Source: Tunturiibacter gelidiferens (GTDB lineage: Bacteria; Acidobacteriota; Terriglobia; Terriglobales; Acidobacteriaceae). Taken from it: a DNA stretch of 64,000 nt. The stretch spans positions 1,116,001 through 1,180,000 of the forward strand of contig NZ_JACCCV010000001.1 of the NCBI RefSeq assembly GCF_013410115.1. Direction: 5' to 3'. The notes beneath the pieces are model-generated. The model did not search any database, was not told where the DNA came from, and worked only from the letters and a program-made list of their open reading frames with translations. Shown piece after piece: positions 54,802-61,745 of the stretch. The translations under genes and the position numbers were made by a program. The first letter of the stretch is position 1, and every line of letters begins with the position of its first letter.

Positions 54802-55023
54802 AGCTCTCCTTTAAGACCTTTTTGCAAAACTTCACTGCCACGGCGTCGCACCGCCGCCTCCCACCTGTAGTGCAATCAGGGTGTCAGTAACTAGGAGAAT
54901 ACATTACCCTCCCAACCAATCACCTCAGGAAAAGCACAGGGAATCACGTCGCGCTAAAGTGCTTGATCTCTTATGGATGCCCAAACCACTCTAATGGTTT
55001 CAACTTCCGCTACCCGCAGCGGT

Positions 55024-55404
55024 TTAGTCTTCAACGACCACCACCGCCATCGCTAGCTCCCTGCTATGGGTCAAGCTCAACTGTACCCTGTGCACGCCCA
55101 TAGCCCCAGCCAACTCTGCCGCCCTCCCACTCAGGTGTAGCGTGGGTCTGCCACTAGCCTCGCGCCGCACTTCAAGCTCTTTCCACGTAATGCCTCGACT
55201 AATTCCGGTCCCGAGAGCCTTCGCACCGGCCTCCTTCGCAGCAAACCGGGCCGCAAAGCTCTCTGCGGCATTCTTTTTCTTACGCATGCAGTAGGCGATC
55301 TCTCCCGCAGTAAAAACCCTCTCCAGAAATCGCTCGCCGTAACGGTCGATACTCTCCTCGATCCGTTTCGTCTCTATCAAATCCGTTCCTACTCCCAGCA
55401 CCAT
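55024..55404 (-). CDS. acpS: Holo-[acyl-carrier-protein] synthase AcpS
   Basis: A 126-residue phosphopantetheinyl transferase activating acyl carrier protein. VLGVGTDLIETKRIEESI carries the Mg-binding Asp; FLERVFTAGEIAYC and FAARFAAKEAGAKALGTG (W/F-x-x-K-E-A) are the second signature, LSLTHSRELAMAVVVVED the third. Typical length. Neighbours are unrelated, as is common for acpS. Confidence 0.96.
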   Translation of the reverse strand: MVLGVGTDLIETKRIEESIDRYGERFLERVFTAGEIAYCMRKKKNAAESFAARFAAKEAGAKALGTGISRGITWKELEVRREASGRPTLHLSGRAAELAGAMGVHRVQLSLTHSRELAMAVVVVED

Positions 55405-55636
55405 AAAGAACCTCGCTCCCGCTATCTACTACATCCATGAAACTAAAAGCAGACAAACCGCCGTCGGAGAGCAAAGTTTTCGAAGTGATATCGCAAGTCA
55501 TCTCTTTTCAACATTATCAAACCGCAAGCGCCACATGACCACAGTACCCCACTAGAGACTCACGCTCCCACCCTCCCCTTCCGATGAACACCCTATCGGC
55601 AAGCACACCTTCGATCGGCAGAGGCTCAACATTCCC

Positions 55637-56002
55637 ATGCAATCGCTTGATATTCAGGGCTTCAGCTACGAAGAGCGCCAAGGCCTCCTGCCCTCGCTCA
55701 CCTCAGCCTTCGCAGACTGCGGAGGCTGGATCCTCAACCGCAGAACCCTCTCGCCCACCACCGTGGAGTTCCGCGTCGAGATCCAGCTTCGCGCCGTCAT
55801 CGACCTTTACGCCTCCATCATCTCCTCGGGCCTCGAGCTCACCCGCGCCGGCCACCTCGGCTTTACCCACCTCTGCACGTGTCGCAAAAACCTCACCACT
55901 CCGGCCGACCTCGGTCAGATCATCACCATCCGTCTGGAGATAAGCTTTCTCGAAGACGCCACTCTCCAGTCGCTCTTTCTCTCCGCTGGCGAGTGCGCCT
56001 GA
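55637..56002 (+). CDS. Small cytosolic protein of unknown function
   Basis: A 121-residue protein without signal or TM segment. MQSLDIQGFSYEERQGLLPS, AFADCGGWILNRRTLSPTTV and EFRVEIQLRAVIDLYASIIS suggest an alpha/beta fold; CTCRK near residue 80. The coding bias matches the surroundings. No family recognised. Ends 16 bases from the end of the convergent FapF-like gene. Confidence 0.75.
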   Translation: MQSLDIQGFSYEERQGLLPSLTSAFADCGGWILNRRTLSPTTVEFRVEIQLRAVIDLYASIISSGLELTRAGHLGFTHLCTCRKNLTTPADLGQIITIRLEISFLEDATLQSLFLSAGECA

Positions 56003-56017
56003 TCATCCTTCACGGTC

Positions 56018-57298
56018 CTAGTGCACGTCCAGCTTCTTTGGTTTCGCCCCCCACAGCCCGAACCGAAACGGCACACCCACGGAGAACTGCAGATTCGGCG
56101 TATCCGGCGTCAGCCCCACGCCGAAGCTCAGGTCGATCGTTTTCCCCGGCGCGTACACGTACGTTGTTCCCAACCGCAACGCTCCTTCTACTAGATACGA
56201 CGCCGGAATATCCACCCCGTTTAACGTGGTGCTACGCGTGAACCGCTGATCCCAGCCCAGCGTCATCGATACCTCTGGATTGAGTGCCAAGATCGATCCA
56301 AGCTGGAATCCCACCGCATCACCCGGCTTGAAGTGTCCCACCATCGTTGCCGAAGGGTTGGTTGGATCGTTCGCCGAAACGGTATGATTCCCCGGCAGAT
56401 TAGCCGTATACGAAAGATTTCCAAAGAACACTACCGGGTCGCTCGACTTCGACAGCGTCAGATTTCCTTGAAGCGCATTGAACCCGGTCCCGAGCGCCGT
56501 CAAGCTGCTCTGCAGATTGAAGGCATCTTTCCCGGTCGTCGATTTGAAGCGCACACTCGCAAGTATGTCGGGAACCTTTCCATGTTCGACCGTGAACTGC
56601 CGGGAGACACCCGCAGAGATATCGCCCAACCCAAAGCTGCTCGAAGAGGTTTGAACATTGTTCGCATCCACCGTCCTGATCAGTTCATATCCATAGGGAA
56701 TCGTGAAATCCCCTTGGAACTTATGCGGAAGCCCCAGTCTGGCCGTAAAGTTTGGCAATAGGTAATCCTCCCGAATACGCTCAGAAGCGATATCGCCCAC
56801 GACTAACACTGGCAGCAGCGCGAACCCATTCACCGTCACATGGTCAGACGAGGCGCTGAAATAAGAAGTCGTATGGTCGACCTCAAGAGTTCCCGAAGGT
56901 AATAGCAATCCACCGCGCAAGATAAGCGCCTGGTCGAGAGCCTCCGTTGCCTGCCGCTCCGTGCTGTCGTAGGTCGACGTCGACACGACCGAGTTAATCA
57001 CGCGACTGGTCGAGCTGGCCGGCAGAGTAGGACGCTCCTCAACCTTGGCCGGAGTGGTAAATCCTCCGTTGACCCGCCACTCCAGCTCATTTACTCGTTC
57101 CAGCAGGTTGCGGATGATGGCATCGCGCTCTCGCAGTGCGTCCTGCAGCTTCAAATCCACCGGGTCTTTCGTCAGAGCCGCTGCTTTGGCGACTTCTTGT
57201 GTCTGAGGGGCAACTTTAGCTGGTGTCGTCTGTGCCGGGAGCGATCCCGCAGCCGCCAGCAACACCACAAGGCCTGGTAGAACTCTTCGCCGCAACAT
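56018..57298 (-). CDS. FapF-like outer-membrane amyloid-export barrel
   Basis: A 426-residue protein: signal peptide (cut after GSLPAQ), a predicted coiled coil (about residues 47-75: LKLQDALRERDAIIRNLLER then VNELEWRV), a Ser/Thr linker, and from about residue 125 an outer-membrane barrel of the 'transporter/phenol_MetA_deg' type (GGLLLPSGTLEVDHTTSYF, LPHKFQGDFTIPYGYELIR, PDILASVRFKSTTGKDAF, FSVGVPFRFGLWG). This coiled-coil-plus-barrel layout and length match FapF, the trimeric channel for amyloid subunits in Pseudomonas. Last gene of the cluster, 16 bases after the C39 gene. Confidence 0.75.
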   Translation of the reverse strand: MLRRRVLPGLVVLLAAAGSLPAQTTPAKVAPQTQEVAKAAALTKDPVDLKLQDALRERDAIIRNLLERVNELEWRVNGGFTTPAKVEERPTLPASSTSRVINSVVSTSTYDSTERQATEALDQALILRGGLLLPSGTLEVDHTTSYFSASSDHVTVNGFALLPVLVVGDIASERIREDYLLPNFTARLGLPHKFQGDFTIPYGYELIRTVDANNVQTSSSSFGLGDISAGVSRQFTVEHGKVPDILASVRFKSTTGKDAFNLQSSLTALGTGFNALQGNLTLSKSSDPVVFFGNLSYTANLPGNHTVSANDPTNPSATMVGHFKPGDAVGFQLGSILALNPEVSMTLGWDQRFTRSTTLNGVDIPASYLVEGALRLGTTYVYAPGKTIDLSFGVGLTPDTPNLQFSVGVPFRFGLWGAKPKKLDVH

Positions 57299-57314
57299 CG
57301 AGCCGCCTTTCCCC

Positions 57315-57995
57315 TCAGTACAAATAGTTGCTCGGAGCCGTAACTCCGATCTTGCGCGAGATCAGCGACTCATCCGGTACCAACCGCGCTGCCACAGGAA
57401 GACGTTTTTGCCCGATCATCCGGTCGTCTGGTGGATGGACCACGAAGACGATTCCGTCCTTCCACAAAGTCTGAAACCGGTCGACTCGCATCGTCACATT
57501 ACCGAAGCCCGGATCGCCCAGAATCACGTGCCCTGCAACAAAACCTTTCACCACCACAAAGTGATCGAAGCCCTTCTCTCGTATCGGTACGATCACCGAA
57601 GTCTTCTCCAGCGCCAGATCCTCAATCGACATGCCGCTGAAGGCCTCCGCATGATATCCCCGCGCCTCGGAAAAGTGCTTCAGGTCCAGCAGCGAAAATC
57701 CGCCACGCGAACGCACGCGCTTTGCGTCCACACGATGAAGAAGCCAAACCACGATCGAAGTCTCTGGCGTATCGTCCTTGAAGTCGTAAGTAAGGAGCGT
57801 GCTCAACGCCGCGGCGCCGCAACTCACGTCCCAACGCTGCTTCACCACGCCCTCATCGCGAATCTCTTTCATGCTTCGAATGTTCTTGCTTCCCTGCACC
57901 CCGGGTGCTTCTCCCGTCTTCTGGGCGCGCATGGGGGCAGGGAAGAGAACAAGACTGGCCAATCCAGCAGCAAGTATCGATCGCAAACAGTTCAT
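57315..57995 (-). CDS. FapD-like exported C39-family peptidase
   Basis: A 226-residue protein with a signal peptide (cut after APMRAQ) and a papain-like C39 domain: KQRWDVSCGAAALSTLL with Cys59, the catalytic His145 in KGFDHFVVVKGF and Asp161 in HVILGDPGFGN. C39 domains normally sit on bacteriocin ABC exporters; free-standing exported ones are the FapD type, needed for Fap amyloid maturation. Its ATG shares the A of the upstream TGA stop (TGATG), so it is coupled to the small subunit gene. Confidence 0.85.
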   Translation of the reverse strand: MNCLRSILAAGLASLVLFPAPMRAQKTGEAPGVQGSKNIRSMKEIRDEGVVKQRWDVSCGAAALSTLLTYDFKDDTPETSIVVWLLHRVDAKRVRSRGGFSLLDLKHFSEARGYHAEAFSGMSIEDLALEKTSVIVPIREKGFDHFVVVKGFVAGHVILGDPGFGNVTMRVDRFQTLWKDGIVFVVHPPDDRMIGQKRLPVAARLVPDESLISRKIGVTAPSNYLY

Positions 57996-58405
57996 CAGTG
58001 TTTTCCAGTCAGGTTGGACTGCACAATGGTCCCTACCGTCGAATTCAGATTGACGTTCAGGTTCAGCAGCACATTGATGTTGGAGTTCACCGCGTTGATG
58101 TTGACCAGCGAACTCAGATTCTGCTGCGCGCTGCCATTCAACGTGAGAGTGCCCATGTTGGTGGTTGAGGTCAGCGGACCGGTCAGCACCTGCAACGTGC
58201 CAGCACCTGTCACCAGACCGTTGGCAGTTGACGCCGATCCTTGGAACTGCACGACTCCATTCGACAAGCTTGCGGAAACACCCGCTGCCGTCACCCGATC
58301 CATAGCGGCATCGTTCAACGGTTGGGGAATATGCCGTGCTGTGCTCTGGGCCAGTCCTGCTTGGGTCAGCAACGCAAGACTCGCAACTACGAAAAGACGA
58401 CGCAT
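57995..58405 (-). CDS. Small Fap-like amyloid subunit or chaperone
   Basis: A 136-residue exported protein (signal cut after AGLAQS). Soon after the signal it has MDRVTAAG (residues 35-42), shared with the larger upstream protein. The C-terminal half TLTLNGSAQQNLSSLVNINA then VNSNINVLLNLNVNLN is Asn/Leu-rich and aligns with the repeats of the larger protein (GSAEQN, NIVNA). GGAGGATTT precedes the ATG. Position suits a minor subunit such as FapA or FapB; assignment is inferred from context and composition. Confidence 0.72.
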   Translation of the reverse strand: MRRLFVVASLALLTQAGLAQSTARHIPQPLNDAAMDRVTAAGVSASLSNGVVQFQGSASTANGLVTGAGTLQVLTGPLTSTTNMGTLTLNGSAQQNLSSLVNINAVNSNINVLLNLNVNLNSTVGTIVQSNLTGKH

Positions 58406-58434
58406 AAATCCTCCTTGATGCCACAGAGAAGCGT

Positions 58435-58468
58435 AGGGAGGGGCTCCCTGGTTGGAGAGCCCCTCCCT
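58435..58468 (-). promoter_or_regulatory. Strong intercistronic hairpin in the Fap-like cluster
   Basis: Perfect 12-bp stem AGGGAGGGGCTC / GAGCCCCTCCCT with a 10-base loop, between the large subunit stop and the small subunit start; no T run follows. Likely protects or partly terminates the upstream mRNA, giving more large subunit than downstream products. Confidence 0.75.
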
Positions 58469-58478
58469 GCGGCCGTCT

Positions 58479-59762
58479 TTAGCGAGACTGCGAAATGCTG
58501 TTGACCTGGCTGAGAGTCGGCATAGTAGTGAGGTTTGTCGTGTGGGCAATGTTCAGTCCATTGGCAACCATACCGCCGGCCGCGTTTACGATGTTCAGTG
58601 CCTTCGCGTTCTGCTCTGCCGAACCGGCAAGTATCACGCTGTAGCTATTGGTGTCGTCGATCGTCGATCCATCGACGGCGATGTTCTTCGCGGCGGCGTA
58701 ATCGAAGCTGACTGCGCCCTCTACATCCTTACTTACAGACTTGCTCTTCACTGCGGTGTAGGACTTCATGTCTGAAGCACTCGCCGCAAGTGTCGTCGCA
58801 AGACTGCTCGAATAGTCGTTCGACACACTTACATTGTGAGTCTTAGTCGAGGTTGCCGAAACAGTGTTGCTCTTGCTCGACGCCAGGTTCGCGGTGGCCG
58901 CCAACGACGCGGCGCTGTTCGAGGCGCTTGTATCTGTGTTCGCCGTGTTGGTGGTGCCGTTGGTCGCTGACCCATTGTTAGCTGATTTTGTGCTGTTCAT
59001 CGCAGAGCCTCCGGTTGAGGAGGTGCTTCCGCCACTCGAAGCGCTGTTGGTGGAGGTGGAGCTGCCTGTTGTTGCGGCACTCCCTCCCGTACCTGACGTT
59101 GCGGTGTTAGCGGTAGTACCGGTAGCCGCTGTATCGTTGGCGCTGTTTGCACTGTTTTCAGAAGCATTCAACGTCAGAGCTGCAGACTTCGTTTTGGTAT
59201 ACGTGTCAGAGAAGCTCTTGCTCTTTGTCAGATCGTTCGCATAAGCAAAGCTATCGGTCTTGCTGGCGGTCAGCGAAGCGTTAAGGCTCGACGTAGAGCT
59301 CTTCGTATCGCTCACATTCGAGCTCTTGCTAACTTTCAACTGGCTGTTCTCTCCCCGCTTGTAGCCATAGAGAACGGCTGTCGATGAGCTATCCTGCGAG
59401 ATACTGTTGGCCTGCGTCACGTCGGTTGGTTTGGTCGAAGCATTGGTCAAAGCGCTGCTGTCGTATACGTTCACGCCATTGGCAACAAGCGCGTCAGACG
59501 AGCTCACGATGTTGATGCCGCTTGCACCCATCAGTGCGGTTCCAGCGAGATTCACCGTGCCTGAGTTGTTTTCAGTCACGGTCGAGTTATTAGCCGCGAT
59601 CGCAGAGTTCTCTTCGCCGGCGGCGGTAACTTTGTCCATCTGGTTGTCAAGCAGCGCCTGCTTTGCCTGTTTATGGTTCGTTGGTTTGGTCTTGTTCTGG
59701 CCGTAAGCGGAGCCGCCGACAAGAACCGATGCGGTAACGAGAGTGCAAATGAGTTTATTCAC
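58479..59762 (-). CDS. FapC-like Ser/Thr/Ala/Asn-rich repeat protein (putative amyloid fibril subunit)
   Basis: A 427-residue exported protein; GTG start with GGAGG 6 bases upstream, signal cut near GSAYGQ. MDKVTAAG follows at residues 42-49. Two homologous units of about 62 residues stand at the ends (60-123 and 365-425), each with A-G-[TS]-A, N-I-V, V-A-N-G-[VL]-N and ending QxNSISQ. Between them lies a 240-residue low-complexity linker of Ser, Thr, Ala, Asn and Lys (SASSGGSTSSTGGSAMNS is typical). Amyloid repeats separated by linkers are the plan of FapC/FapB. First gene of the cluster and presumably the most expressed. Confidence 0.75.
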   Translation of the reverse strand: MNKLICTLVTASVLVGGSAYGQNKTKPTNHKQAKQALLDNQMDKVTAAGEENSAIAANNSTVTENNSGTVNLAGTALMGASGINIVSSSDALVANGVNVYDSSALTNASTKPTDVTQANSISQDSSSTAVLYGYKRGENSQLKVSKSSNVSDTKSSTSSLNASLTASKTDSFAYANDLTKSKSFSDTYTKTKSAALTLNASENSANSANDTAATGTTANTATSGTGGSAATTGSSTSTNSASSGGSTSSTGGSAMNSTKSANNGSATNGTTNTANTDTSASNSAASLAATANLASSKSNTVSATSTKTHNVSVSNDYSSSLATTLAASASDMKSYTAVKSKSVSKDVEGAVSFDYAAAKNIAVDGSTIDDTNSYSVILAGSAEQNAKALNIVNAAGGMVANGLNIAHTTNLTTMPTLSQVNSISQSR

Positions 59763-60326
59763 TTCTGCCTCCTGGGCATTGTTGACGAGCACGACCGTCT
59801 ACGCAGCAAGGCCGGCTGCATAGGGGACAAGATTGACGCACCACAGTGCGGGCGCACGCAAGCGAGCGGGCGCAGTGGGGACATCGCGTAAATGTTCGGA
59901 TTAAGGCTTCAACTCAGGCTGAATGAAACCAGCGTAAAACGTAAAAAGCGTAGCGATACATGCGATGAGACTGTCGTTCAAGCCGATCGCGTTCGTAATG
60001 TAGTTCGTGCATGAAGCCTGTCACTACTAATGAATGTCATCTCTGTCTTGCAATAGATAGTGCGCGACAGATGGAGCCCGTTTCAGAAGTATCTTTCAGA
60101 CTTCCGACGACAGCGGTATATGCAATTCAAGTGCCAATTTCTGCCCCCGCATTCCACAGGGGATCTTGCGTATCTCATTTGACACCATGCAGCAACTTGC
60201 AAATTTCGAGAAAACAATTCTCTCGACACGTGTGCCACGGTGGTAACCCTCTCGTCCGCTCCTACCGTAACTTACTCAGTCTTATTCTCTTGCAACGTCT
60301 TAGTCTCGGAGCGCCGGAGCCCTCAA
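59763..60326. other. Intergenic region upstream of the Fap-like cluster
   Basis: 564 bases with no supportable gene. It should carry the cluster's promoter on the minus strand; TTGAAC (near 59980) with a weak TATCGC 17 bases on is the only candidate I noticed. The plus-strand open frame at 60011-60385 has no coding character. Confidence 0.4.
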
Positions 60327-60932
60327 TCAGCGCCCAAGTTCGACAACCGTCTTGCGGTGCAGCATGCTATCCGAGTCACCAATAACCAACGCGCCCGGCT
60401 GCTTCCACCCATGCGTCAAAACCAGCCTTAAGCCCGTTGCATCTCCGGCTACCTTGAACACCGGCTCGCTCATTACCGAGTCTCCTCCAGCCACCCTCGT
60501 ACTCAACCCCACCCCATTGACTCCAGCCGACTCCTCCCACAGCCGCCCCTGCGCATCCGTCAAGTAAACCCGGATCAAACCATCGCTCCGGGCCGACCGT
60601 CCCCGATTTGTAACCCGAACAGTCACTCGCACCAGGCGCCGCCCATCACGAACCAGAAATCCTCTTACCTCGTCCACTCGGACAACTGTAAAACACATCT
60701 CATCAAAACACTGCGGCTCCCCTACCGCGACCACTCTCTGCTTTTGTCCCAGCGAAACTCCAATCAACACCGTCAGATACACCACCCAAACCCCAGCCAG
60801 CCACGCTATCCCACGACGCACTCGCAGCCGTTCACCTCGCAGCCACGACACCCCCACGCCCACCAAGCCCAACGCCGTCCATCCCCCCACTCCAACAAGC
60901 AAAAGCTCCGTCAGCCTCACTCCCCACCCCAT
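60327..60932 (-). CDS. DUF4352-like membrane-anchored protein
   Basis: A 201-residue protein with two N-terminal TM helices (LTELLLVGVGGWTALGLVGV and GIAWLAGVWVVYLTVLIGVS) and an extracytoplasmic immunoglobulin-like domain: FDEMCFTVVRVDEV, RRLVRVTVRVTNRGR, LIRVYLTDAQGRLWEESAG, SVMSEPVFKVAGDATGLRLV. That is the DUF4352/telethonin-like pattern of exported beta domains. AGGAAG 9 bases before the ATG. A longer frame upstream is antisense to the ABC gene and rejected. Divergent from that gene by 24 bases. Confidence 0.78.
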   Translation of the reverse strand: MGWGVRLTELLLVGVGGWTALGLVGVGVSWLRGERLRVRRGIAWLAGVWVVYLTVLIGVSLGQKQRVVAVGEPQCFDEMCFTVVRVDEVRGFLVRDGRRLVRVTVRVTNRGRSARSDGLIRVYLTDAQGRLWEESAGVNGVGLSTRVAGGDSVMSEPVFKVAGDATGLRLVLTHGWKQPGALVIGDSDSMLHRKTVVELGR

Positions 60933-60956
60933 TCGCGATAGACTTCCTATACGTAC

Positions 60957-61745
60957 ATGTCTCCTCATTCTTCCACGTTGTCCCCCCAGCCCGACTCCTC
61001 TTCCACAACGCCTCTTCTCTCGACGCCCGATGGCAGCGTCGCAACGCCCGTCATCCTCGCCCGCGATCTCGGCAAGACCTATCGCTCCGGCAAGCTCGAG
61101 GTACCCGCTCTTCGCAAGGTCAACTTTGCCATCACACCCGGCGAGTTCGTCGCCATCGTTGGCCCATCCGGCTCCGGAAAATCCACGCTCTTCTATATCC
61201 TCGGCGGACTCACCGGAGCCACAACCGGCTCCGTCCTCATCGACGGCATCGACTTCGCCACCCTCTCCGACGCGGAACGCACGCGCACCCGCCGGGCAAA
61301 GATTGGCTTCATCTTCCAGCGTTTCAATCTCTTGCCCACCCTCTCGGCCATGGGCAACATCGAGATCGCCCACGACATCGCCAATCTCGGCGCCTCGACC
61401 AAGCGAGAGCTCGACCGGCCTCTCCTCACCCACCTCACCGAGATGCTCGGCATCCAAGGCCGTCTCGACCACCGCCCCAACGAGCTATCCGGCGGCGAGC
61501 AGCAGCGAGTAGCCATCGCCCGCGCCCTCATTAACCGCCCAGCCATCGTCCTCGCCGACGAACCCACGGGCAACCTCGATACCAGGAACTCCGATGCTGT
61601 CCTCAAGATGCTCCGTCAATCCAGCCGCGAGCTCAACCAGACCGTCCTCATGATCACCCACAACCCAGAGGCGGCTCAGATCGCCGATCGCATCCTCCAC
61701 ATGCGCGATGGCGAAATTACTCATATTGAGACCGTTACCCGCTAG
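60957..61745 (+). CDS. LolD/MacB-type ABC transporter ATPase
   Basis: A 262-residue ATPase: Walker [11 protein letters not shown]-loop [13 protein letters not shown], signature [15 protein letters not shown], Walker [13 protein letters not shown], switch His in MITHNPEA. The sequence around the Q-loop and GNLD is that of the MacB/LolD/FtsE group, which pairs with FtsX-type permeases. A Ser/Thr/Pro-rich 30-residue N-terminal extension is unusual. No permease is adjacent; the only one in the window is at 27879. Confidence 0.95.

Follow-up and report, generated by a model that had tools for sequence, protein, structure and literature searches.

The closest described counterpart of the locus reported here is the Fap system of Pseudomonas (fapABCDEF), in which a single operon encodes two kinds of exported repeat subunit, large and small, whose linkers vary, along with a periplasmic C39 peptidase and a FapF-family barrel with a coiled-coil-like region. 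In a 2013 survey, complete systems of this kind were confined to Proteobacteria (PMC3792158), and co-localised fapD-fapF pairs were described from five further phyla in 2018 (PMC6173800). Papers of 2017 (PMC5557850) and 2018 (PMC6173800) did not settle what FapD cuts; the former reports that Fap proteins have no canonical C39 sequences and that Pseudomonas FapB and FapC are, by mass spectrometry, not N-terminally processed. The same C39 and barrel families occur as FilB and FilC in the Acinetobacter Fil pilus system (FilA-F), and the Neisseria nap island (NapP, a C39 peptidase; NapF, FapF-like; and the GG peptides NapA-C) is described as a single locus encoding GG-type leader cargo together with a C39 peptidase and a channel related to FapF (PMC11798529).

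Here we describe a four-gene locus in a 64,000-nucleotide stretch of DNA (the window) from Tunturiibacter gelidiferens. An original prediction had assigned it to an apparent acidobacterium, a host that our analysis supports, and had read it as following the Pseudomonas Fap plan. Of that plan the FapF-family barrel, the FapD/FilB-type C39 peptidase and the repeat subunits held, whereas homology to the FapB/FapC repeats and the gene order did not. The accompanying view that Fap is mainly proteobacterial agrees with the survey of complete systems but not with the fapD-fapF pairs reported from other phyla. Judged by its sequence, the locus appears to be a Fap-like variant rather than a canonical Fap system, and its most informative feature, more so than any in the original prediction, is a leader motif.

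Organization and conservation of the four-gene module

The four tightly spaced minus-strand genes lie where they had been placed (ORF listing of the window; Table 1), and all 31 mapped loci with the module, of which L003 and L071 represent one and the same DNA, keep the order large repeat protein, small relative, C39 peptidase, barrel. The large-subunit gene opens with GTG, with AGGAGG in front, and is separated by 73 nt from the small-subunit gene, which overlaps the C39 gene by 1 nt (ATGA); a further 16 nt precede the barrel gene. By eye, each protein opens with a Sec-type signal sequence. The ORF listing also offered a 369-aa reading of the C39 gene and a 184-aa reading of the small subunit; both were rejected, as their in-frame upstream starts overlap the neighbouring genes and disagree with most orthologues.

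Table 1. Features of the locus, with positions in the window and residues numbered within each protein
Feature	Positions	Strand	Conservation or basis
Large repeat subunit, 427 aa, FapC-like layout: signal sequence, putative double-glycine-type leader, repeat, Ser/Ala/Thr/Asn-rich linker, repeat	58479..59762	-	
Putative leader motif of large subunit, LLDNQMDKVTAA, residues 37-48; C39 cleavage predicted after A48 or G49	59619..59654	-	30/31 orthologues
N-terminal ~65-residue repeat unit of large subunit, residues 55-123	59394..59600	-	hhalign against C-terminal unit
C-terminal ~65-residue repeat unit of large subunit, residues 361-425	58488..58682	-	Asn/Gln columns common to N-terminal unit
Small subunit, 136 aa, single related repeat-like unit in C-terminal half	57995..58405	-	
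Putative leader motif of small subunit, LNDAAMDRVTAA, residues 30-41	58283..58318	-	31/31 orthologues
Exported free-standing C39 peptidase, FapD/FilB-like, 226 aa	57315..57995	-	
FapF-like outer-membrane barrel, 426 aa, N-terminal coiled-coil-like region	56018..57298	-	
Candidate periplasmic coiled-coil helix of barrel protein, residues 46-76	57071..57163	-	Conserved in nine Edaphobacter-type rows; helix in very-low-confidence model
Candidate plug helix of barrel, residues 115-126	56921..56956	-	Position before barrel; helix in very-low-confidence model
Non-coding stretch upstream of the four genes, present or absent together with them	59763..60320	-	G245 comparison

Compared with five to six relatives, dN/dS was 0.07-0.11 for the C39 and barrel genes, 0.11-0.21 for the small subunit and 0.25-0.36 for the large one; values of 0.07-0.36 mark all four as genes under selection rather than chance ORFs. 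In the near relative G245 the stretch equivalent to 56005-60320 of the window is replaced by 78 bp, with both flanks aligning at 77%, so that the four genes and their upstream region are missing as a single 4.3-kb block. That upstream region probably holds the promoter. Consensus scans returned 3 promoters where 2.1 were expected, not above chance, and 10 terminators where 5.2 were expected, and an Rfam scan of 55000-61000 gave no match reaching the gathering score.

The small subunit was found in 25 of 298 sampled genomes of the order, 24 of them already known to carry the barrel; the remaining one, G645, holds the whole module as a four-gene copy, 37-49% identical, with both leaders present. 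A tblastn search with the small subunit gave no match in the plasmid collection. The C39 protein is 92% identical to that of Edaphobacter lichenicola. Transfer from a sampled donor was considered and rejected, since in both trees, which comprise 12 of the 31 orthologues without G645 and have weak deep forks, Edaphobacter forms a separate, long-stemmed clade that is nested in no sampled group.

The 426-residue barrel, as had been proposed, belongs to the FapF family: it matches the FapF structures 5o65, 5o67 and 5o68 at E 9e-22 to 8e-21. The barrel alignment is collinear, R187 is the equivalent of the secretion-critical R157 of the barrel lumen, and the TG loop motifs are kept in the window barrel. 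The E98-K401 plug salt bridge of FapF is not matched; at K401 the window barrel has Gly408 and the nine aligned Edaphobacter-type rows have Gly or Ser, with an Arg four residues further on. Against family models the barrel scored 102.5 bits with FapF (NF058560; 2.2e-29; equivalog cut-off 700) and 46.9 bits with FilC (2.4e-12).

The neighbouring protein matches Pfam Peptidase_C39 (4.3e-14), and all 31 orthologues retain its Gln53, Cys59, His145 and Asp161, His and Asp being scored by alignment (narrow regular expressions missed them in 10 and 1 of the 31); the description of a free-standing exported C39 protein with intact Cys/His/Asp was thus accurate. Its scores were 114.5 bits against FilB (5.6e-33; cut-off 475) and 94.7 bits against FapD (4.8e-27; equivalog cut-off 330), and the G645 relative likewise scored 117.8 against 108.1. 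The anticipated FapD and FapF profile matches were accordingly found, but far below the equivalog cut-offs and with FilB ahead of FapD. In the other records surveyed, Polymorphobacter has a second C39 place, C39 matches also occur in Neisseria and Tistrella, and the C39 genes of Acidithiobacillus plasmids appear in pieces in the ORF list.

Unlike Pseudomonas Fap, the operon lacks FapA and FapE, and its order is large-small-D-F instead of A-B-C-D-E-F. FapE had been called unrecognisable, and rightly so for the operon, which contains no such gene and has no room for one; searching the whole genome with the FapE model brought up a single 570-aa frame, some 80 kb distant, at E 0.011 and 16.1 bits against a cut-off of 250. 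Two alphaproteobacterial operons, from Polymorphobacter (L090) and Croceicoccus (L091), share the order large-small-C39-...-barrel and a homologous small subunit. They differ in that their large proteins have no leader and in an extra exported gene, called FapE-type by position, that lies between C39 and barrel and carries a leader-like RGG motif; the Polymorphobacter copy has no FapE model match.

Repeats of the large and small subunits

The repeat-linker-repeat architecture proposed for the large protein was borne out by hhalign (N- against C-terminal unit, E 6.6e-17, score 87.2; 60 column shuffles gave no more than 18.8). The small protein had been taken for its relative, which is right for the C-terminal unit (E 9e-6, score 32.6; shuffles at most 16.8) and weakly so for the N-terminal one (E 0.017, reached by 1 of 60 shuffles). 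Nine columns, including N, N, Q, N and Q, are identical across all aligned copies of both repeats. By eye, two natural variants of the large subunit were recognised, one of 238 aa without the linker (L073) and one with four repeats (L076), in line with the linker and repeat variation published for FapC (PMC3792158).

The two repeats of about 65 residues differ from the repeats described for Pseudomonas, mostly three of about 39 (PMC12392863). A by-eye alignment with FapB/FapC repeats looked good, but hhalign against nine of them detected no homology (E 0.15, 0.05 and 0.2, at or near shuffled controls), and membership of canonical FapC was rejected. A weak, indirect link to the FapB/FapC repeats runs through the alphaproteobacterial small subunits (E 0.006), two of which match the small subunit at E 2.7e-5. 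The N-terminal repeat reached E 0.02 against these alphaproteobacterial proteins, as did 3 of 60 shuffles, and the small subunit and C-terminal repeat gave no match to the Cupriavidus/G333 small proteins (E 0.26 and 0.14).

No family was recovered for the small subunit in Pfam or NCBIfam, or for the large one in Pfam, NCBIfam or PDB beyond a DinI match (E 0.0075; 0.19) over residues 341-381, at the junction of linker and C-terminal repeat, which we took as chance. Curli (Csg) models were absent from the Pfam and NCBIfam matches of all four proteins. Two AlphaFold2 predictions, whose input rows were the window and L001-L003, had mean pLDDT values of 27.4 and 30.5 and were unusable.

A putative double-glycine-type leader on both subunits

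A new element, which on its sequence appears to be a double-glycine-type leader, lies behind the signal sequence of both subunits. The consensus of double-glycine (C39) leaders has L at -12, L/M at -7, V/I at -4, G/A at -2 and G/A/S at -1; the layout here is L at -12, M/L at -7, V/I at -4, A at -2 and A/G/S at -1, position -2 being Ala instead of the textbook Gly. In the sole orthologue without the large-subunit motif, the ORF is cut by the contig end. A strict pattern, derived from the motif itself, was found in 61 of 62 subunit sequences, in 0 of 917 other ORFs (six-frame, at least 120 aa, same loci), in 0 of 146 known flanking or export genes and in 0.00008 of shuffles. With textbook spacing the corresponding figures were 61/62, 33/917, 11/146 and 0.06. 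No leader-family model of Pfam or NCBIfam matched the subunit leaders. Within the large-subunit leader, columns D, Q, T and A are 100% conserved, compared with 23-70% at fixed offsets in the 24 residues that precede it.

This conserved leader on both proteins, a departure from Fap proteins as characterized in the 2017 paper (PMC5557850), points to the subunits as substrates of the C39 peptidase. Leader-like motifs, there with G at -2, were also seen beyond Edaphobacter, in 19 of 21 small or FapE-type proteins adjoining C39 genes, a set hand-chosen after looking and scored with a loose pattern that 26% of shuffled small sequences match; the count is 16 of 18 without the loci whose barrel-like ORF matches neither FapF nor FilC.

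Proposed export route and alternative readings

Taken as a whole, the locus probably encodes a small Fap-like module that exports extracellular fibre subunits in two steps. The repeat proteins would both leave the cytoplasm by Sec, and the periplasmic C39 peptidase would recognise the double-glycine-type leader and trim each subunit. The trimmed, largely disordered chains would then cross the FapF-like barrel and assemble outside, probably into amyloid-like fibres, in which the Asn/Gln-bearing repeats of about 65 residues may stack while the variable Ser/Ala/Thr/Asn-rich linker loops out; the small one-repeat protein might act as nucleator or cap. Several observations speak against this reading: the subunit repeats match neither FapB/FapC repeats nor, apart from the DinI match, a known family, the K401 column is altered, the leader has Ala at -2 and matches no leader model, the N-terminal repeat is weakly related to the small subunit, and Pseudomonas FapB and FapC were found unprocessed at their N-termini (PMC5557850).

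The same export machinery could instead serve a non-amyloid surface adhesin or pilus-like system nearer to Acinetobacter Fil, with the subunits forming a flexible Ser/Asn-rich coat or thread. The preference of both C39 proteins for FilB over FapD, a leader-like motif in FilA (locus L093) and the failure of the subunit repeats to match FapC speak for this reading. We nevertheless regard it as unlikely, as the barrel resembles FapF far more closely than FilC, neither subunit matches a Fil model, the operon has no further exported gene, and the two-repeat, variable-linker layout with its invariant Asn/Gln columns is amyloid-like. Of the FilA-F set, the scan of the four operon genes with Fil models showed FilB- and FilC-related members only.

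A secreted peptide system like the nap island, with the small protein as signalling or bacteriocin-like cargo, would use the same three functional pieces (PMC11798529), and on Acinetobacter and Deinococcus plasmids small leader-bearing proteins adjoin a C39 gene and a generic outer-membrane-barrel ORF without a FapF match. These Deinococcus and Acinetobacter (SAAs474) loci were not counted as FapF-type because their barrel-like ORFs match no FapF model; they match only the generic outer-membrane-barrel family, below its cut-off. Nap cargo is described as small, cationic and microcin-like (PMC11798529), whereas here it would be repeat fibre subunits, a conserved pair of predicted mature proteins of 95 and 379 residues, the larger repetitive and the smaller nearly uncharged (1% Lys; no Arg, Asp or Glu), which makes this reading very improbable. 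Least credible is a small-molecule uptake porin of the COG4313/phenol-degradation type standing beside unrelated exported proteins: the barrel does pass the Pfam Phenol_MetA_deg cut-off (28.6 against 22 bits), but FapF structures and the FapF model match far better, and the four genes occur together in 31 loci, are missing together in G245, and are tracked by the small subunit in the genome survey.

If the two-step export module is what this locus encodes, a four-gene Fap-like version with its subunits would exist in a phylum other than Proteobacteria. The conserved C39-type cutting site on both subunits predicts the substrate of the peptidase and the position of the cut, and the leader reading also points to FapE and the small subunits of other operons. 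It is also possible, though we hold it tentatively, that a widespread FapD/FapF-type route (Sec, periplasmic C39 cleavage of a portable double-glycine leader, FapF barrel) carries interchangeable cargo, be it amyloid subunits, pilus parts or peptides, and that a leader-processed amyloid arose independently in the Edaphobacter branch or diverged strongly there, so that the peptidase would release the chain that forms the fibre and not a FapE-type helper alone. So divergent a fibre sequence would offer a way to test which features a secreted functional amyloid needs.

Organization, distribution and loss of the module

An ORF check of the window bore out the coordinates and strand that the original prediction had assigned to all four genes. 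Going from the large subunit to the barrel, the first two genes are 73 nt apart, the second and third overlap by 1 nt, and the last two are 16 nt apart.

Genes of the module in the window
Gene product	Position	Strand	Length
Large exported protein	58479-59762	minus	427 aa
Small exported protein	57995-58405	minus	136 aa
C39 peptidase	57315-57995	minus	226 aa
Barrel	56018-57298	minus	426 aa

Thirty-five stretches were mapped, 31 with the module, two with remnants (genomes G130 and G034) and two with relatives (G333 and G404). The order large-small-C39-barrel was found in all 31 module-bearing stretches; among these, L003 and L071 represent one and the same DNA, a contig end truncates L030, and L041 has its large gene divided over two frames. 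The host belongs to Edaphobacter: the C39 protein of the window shares 92% identity with that of E. lichenicola and 83% with that of Granulicella sp. L60. dN/dS is low across all four genes, with constraint loosest on the large subunit; the module is genuine and under selection. The window's genome holds one copy each of the barrel, the C39 gene (by FapD model) and the large subunit.

Barrel matches were obtained in 29 of the 62 genomes of the genus (both remnants counted), in 6 of 150 sampled from the family and in 16 of 396 sampled from the phylum, and the small subunit in 25 of 298 sampled from the order, namely 24 known barrel carriers and G645, from another genus. The divergent four-gene module of G645 (L109, 7798-11812) shows 37-49% identity and scores 98 bits with the FapF model; its 12-kb contig, one of 190 in the assembly, may be misbinned and is of unsure origin. 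Near-identical modules occur in L030 (G089) and L085 (G548), from genomes assigned to different genera; since the G089 copy lies on an 11-kb contig, this reflects either misbinning or recent transfer. G333 and G404, from another family of the phylum, have C39 and barrel relatives among different neighbours. In G333 (L034, 676-3398) the C39 gene and the FapF-like barrel are convergent, and the small and FapE-position proteins both bear GG leader-like motifs.

The flanking genes in the window encode an M13 peptidase, an MlaD protein, AcpS, an ABC ATPase and a JmjC-type protein. In genome G245 the flanks align with the window at 77% and 78 bp stands in for window 56005-60320; the four genes and the upstream region are thus present or absent together. 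When 14 of the 33 barrel-free genomes of the genus were queried, the gap between acpS and the ABC gene was 1.2-1.6 kb in eight; in the window it measures 5.6 kb. Of the remaining six genomes, three yielded no ABC gene at E 1e-80, one had it on a separate contig and two had it 3.7 and 5.3 kb off. In several module-bearing stretches the window's flanking genes were not seen, so that the module there probably sits at another place. Loss or movement affects the module as a single unit.

Between acpS and the ABC gene, G130 retains a frame-broken barrel and a partial large subunit (L032, 5758-8142) and G034 a truncated barrel (L033, 5788-6390), neither remnant having a C39 or small-subunit ORF match; these are decayed modules, with loss in progress. 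In the window, the approximately 1.2 kb from the module to the ABC-transporter gene (59763-60956) contains no convincing gene, and about half of it falls inside the presence/absence block.

Relatives of the barrel, the peptidase and the subunit repeats

The window barrel matched the FapF crystal structures 5o65, 5o67 and 5o68 (about E 1e-21), the NCBIfam FapF model (2.2e-29, 102.5 bits, the equivalog cut-off being 700) and the FilC model (E 2.4e-12), and also passed the Pfam Phenol_MetA_deg cut-off. The barrel region was collinear throughout an alignment of 9 Edaphobacter-type barrels, 11 others and the crystal sequence. R187 of the window barrel is the equivalent of FapF R157, which mutants have shown to be required for secretion in Pseudomonas (PMC5557850). 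Both TG loop motifs are kept in the window protein, without the proline, and K401, the lysine of the FapF plug salt bridge, is replaced by Gly, with an Arg four residues further on.

The C39 protein scored 114.5 bits against FilB and 94.7 bits against FapD, each under its cut-off, and all 31 orthologues keep its Gln53, Cys59, His145 and Asp161. The 12 Edaphobacter-type rows come together as a single supported clade with a long stem, nested inside no sampled group, in the C39 tree and likewise in the barrel tree; long branches leave the remaining deep joins unsure. In the barrel tree G333 groups with proteobacterial rows, apart from Edaphobacter.

Save for a chance-level DinI match, the large subunit matched nothing in Pfam, NCBIfam or PDB, and the small subunit matched nothing in Pfam or NCBIfam. 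The N- and C-terminal units of the large subunit are homologous to each other (hhalign E 6.6e-17, 42% identical across 65 columns; score 87.2, compared with a maximum of 18.8 among 60 shuffles), and the C-terminal unit also matches the small subunit (E 9e-6; 32.6 versus 16.8 in shuffles), the N-terminal unit doing so weakly (E 0.017). Nine columns are invariant in every aligned copy of the two repeats (29 sequences for the first and 30 for the second, L041 being omitted and L030 present in the second repeat only), and five of the nine are Asn or Gln. The linker is rich in Ser, Ala, Thr and Asn and freely variable; by eye, the large subunit of L073 lacks it and that of L076 has four repeats.

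Against nine FapB/FapC repeats from Aeromonas and Pseudomonas UK4, the Edaphobacter units gave E values of 0.05-0.2, at or near those of shuffles. Two alphaproteobacterial operons encode small subunits that the Edaphobacter one matched (E 2.7e-5; score 30.1 versus 19.2 in shuffles); these in turn matched small proteins of Cupriavidus and G333 (E 2.3e-6) and, weakly, the FapB/FapC repeats (E 0.006; 17.0 versus 15.7 in shuffles). Between the Edaphobacter units and the Cupriavidus/G333 pair there was no match (E 0.14, 0.26). As judged from these sequence comparisons, a deep common origin is possible.

A double-glycine-type leader on both subunits

Peptidases of the C39 family cut double-glycine leaders, for which the bacteriocin consensus is LSxxELxxIxGG. 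Directly behind the signal sequence, 30 of 31 large and 31 of 31 small subunits carry the motif [LIM]-x-D-x-x-[ML]-x-x-[VIL]-T-A-[AGS], which has the same spacing as the bacteriocin leader, with Ala replacing Gly at -2. A strict pattern derived from the motif itself matched 61 of 62 subunits, none of 917 other ORFs (six-frame, at least 120 aa, same loci) and 0.008% of shuffles; the textbook spacing, a looser pattern, matched 61 of 62, 33 of 917 and 6%, respectively. The large subunit of G645 matches the strict pattern and its small subunit the textbook pattern only.

Outside Edaphobacter, 21 proteins of small or FapE type, each from beside a C39 gene, were hand-picked after inspection. Within residues 16-110, 19 of them had a leader-like motif whose -2 residue is Gly (e.g. 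LTDDEMSSLRGG, ITDYELATMRGG and, in Aeromonas FapE, LADGELAHLRGR), under a loose pattern that 26% of shuffled small sequences also match; the count is 16 of 18 without three plasmid proteins whose barrel-like ORF has no FapF model match. The Cupriavidus protein has an RGG deeper than this range and the G404 protein gave no match. Among 10 large or FapC-type proteins one had matches, all inside its signal region; Edaphobacter differs from these ten in bearing a leader on the large subunit.

On a Deinococcus plasmid (L099, 3174-5293) a leader-bearing small protein (LSDEELDGVTGE), a C39 peptidase and an ORF for a generic outer-membrane barrel are consecutive, and on an Acinetobacter plasmid (L100, 1376-4534) two small proteins sharing an identical leader-like motif (LSRQEMKDTQGA) accompany a C39 peptidase and a barrel-like ORF of generic type; neither barrel matched FapF.

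Proposed pathway and relation to Fap

Signal sequences and family membership suggest that the subunits would be exported by Sec and later pass the FapF-like barrel; between these steps a periplasmic C39 enzyme would remove the conserved leader. The repeat layout, the Asn/Gln columns and analogy point to putative assembly outside the cell. AlphaFold2 models from a four-row input were unusable. The FapE model gave one weak match in the whole genome (G000:C1:1093708-1093923, outside the window; E 0.011, 16.1 of 250 bits); it lies in a frame of 570 aa some 80 kb away from the module and is probably due to chance.

A 2013 survey detected Fap operons in Proteobacteria only (PMC3792158); a 2018 review added 25 genera, and fapD-fapF pairs in five further phyla that its available text leaves unnamed (PMC6173800). 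A 2025 GTDB survey made FapBC-repeat homology a requirement (PMC12392863), a rule that would probably pass over the module. The catalytic Cys of FapD is reported to be essential and FapE to be its suspected substrate, canonical C39 sequences being stated as absent from Fap proteins (PMC5557850), and a Neisseria island encodes GG peptides alongside a C39 peptidase and a FapF relative (PMC11798529). In the accessible text of the open-licence literature on acidobacterial or Edaphobacter amyloid, Fap and C39 leaders, we found no account of the locus or the leader.

The original prediction of a Fap-like locus is partly supported: the module most likely works like Fap, but it departs from Fap in several defining features and is therefore a variant of the Fap type rather than a canonical member.
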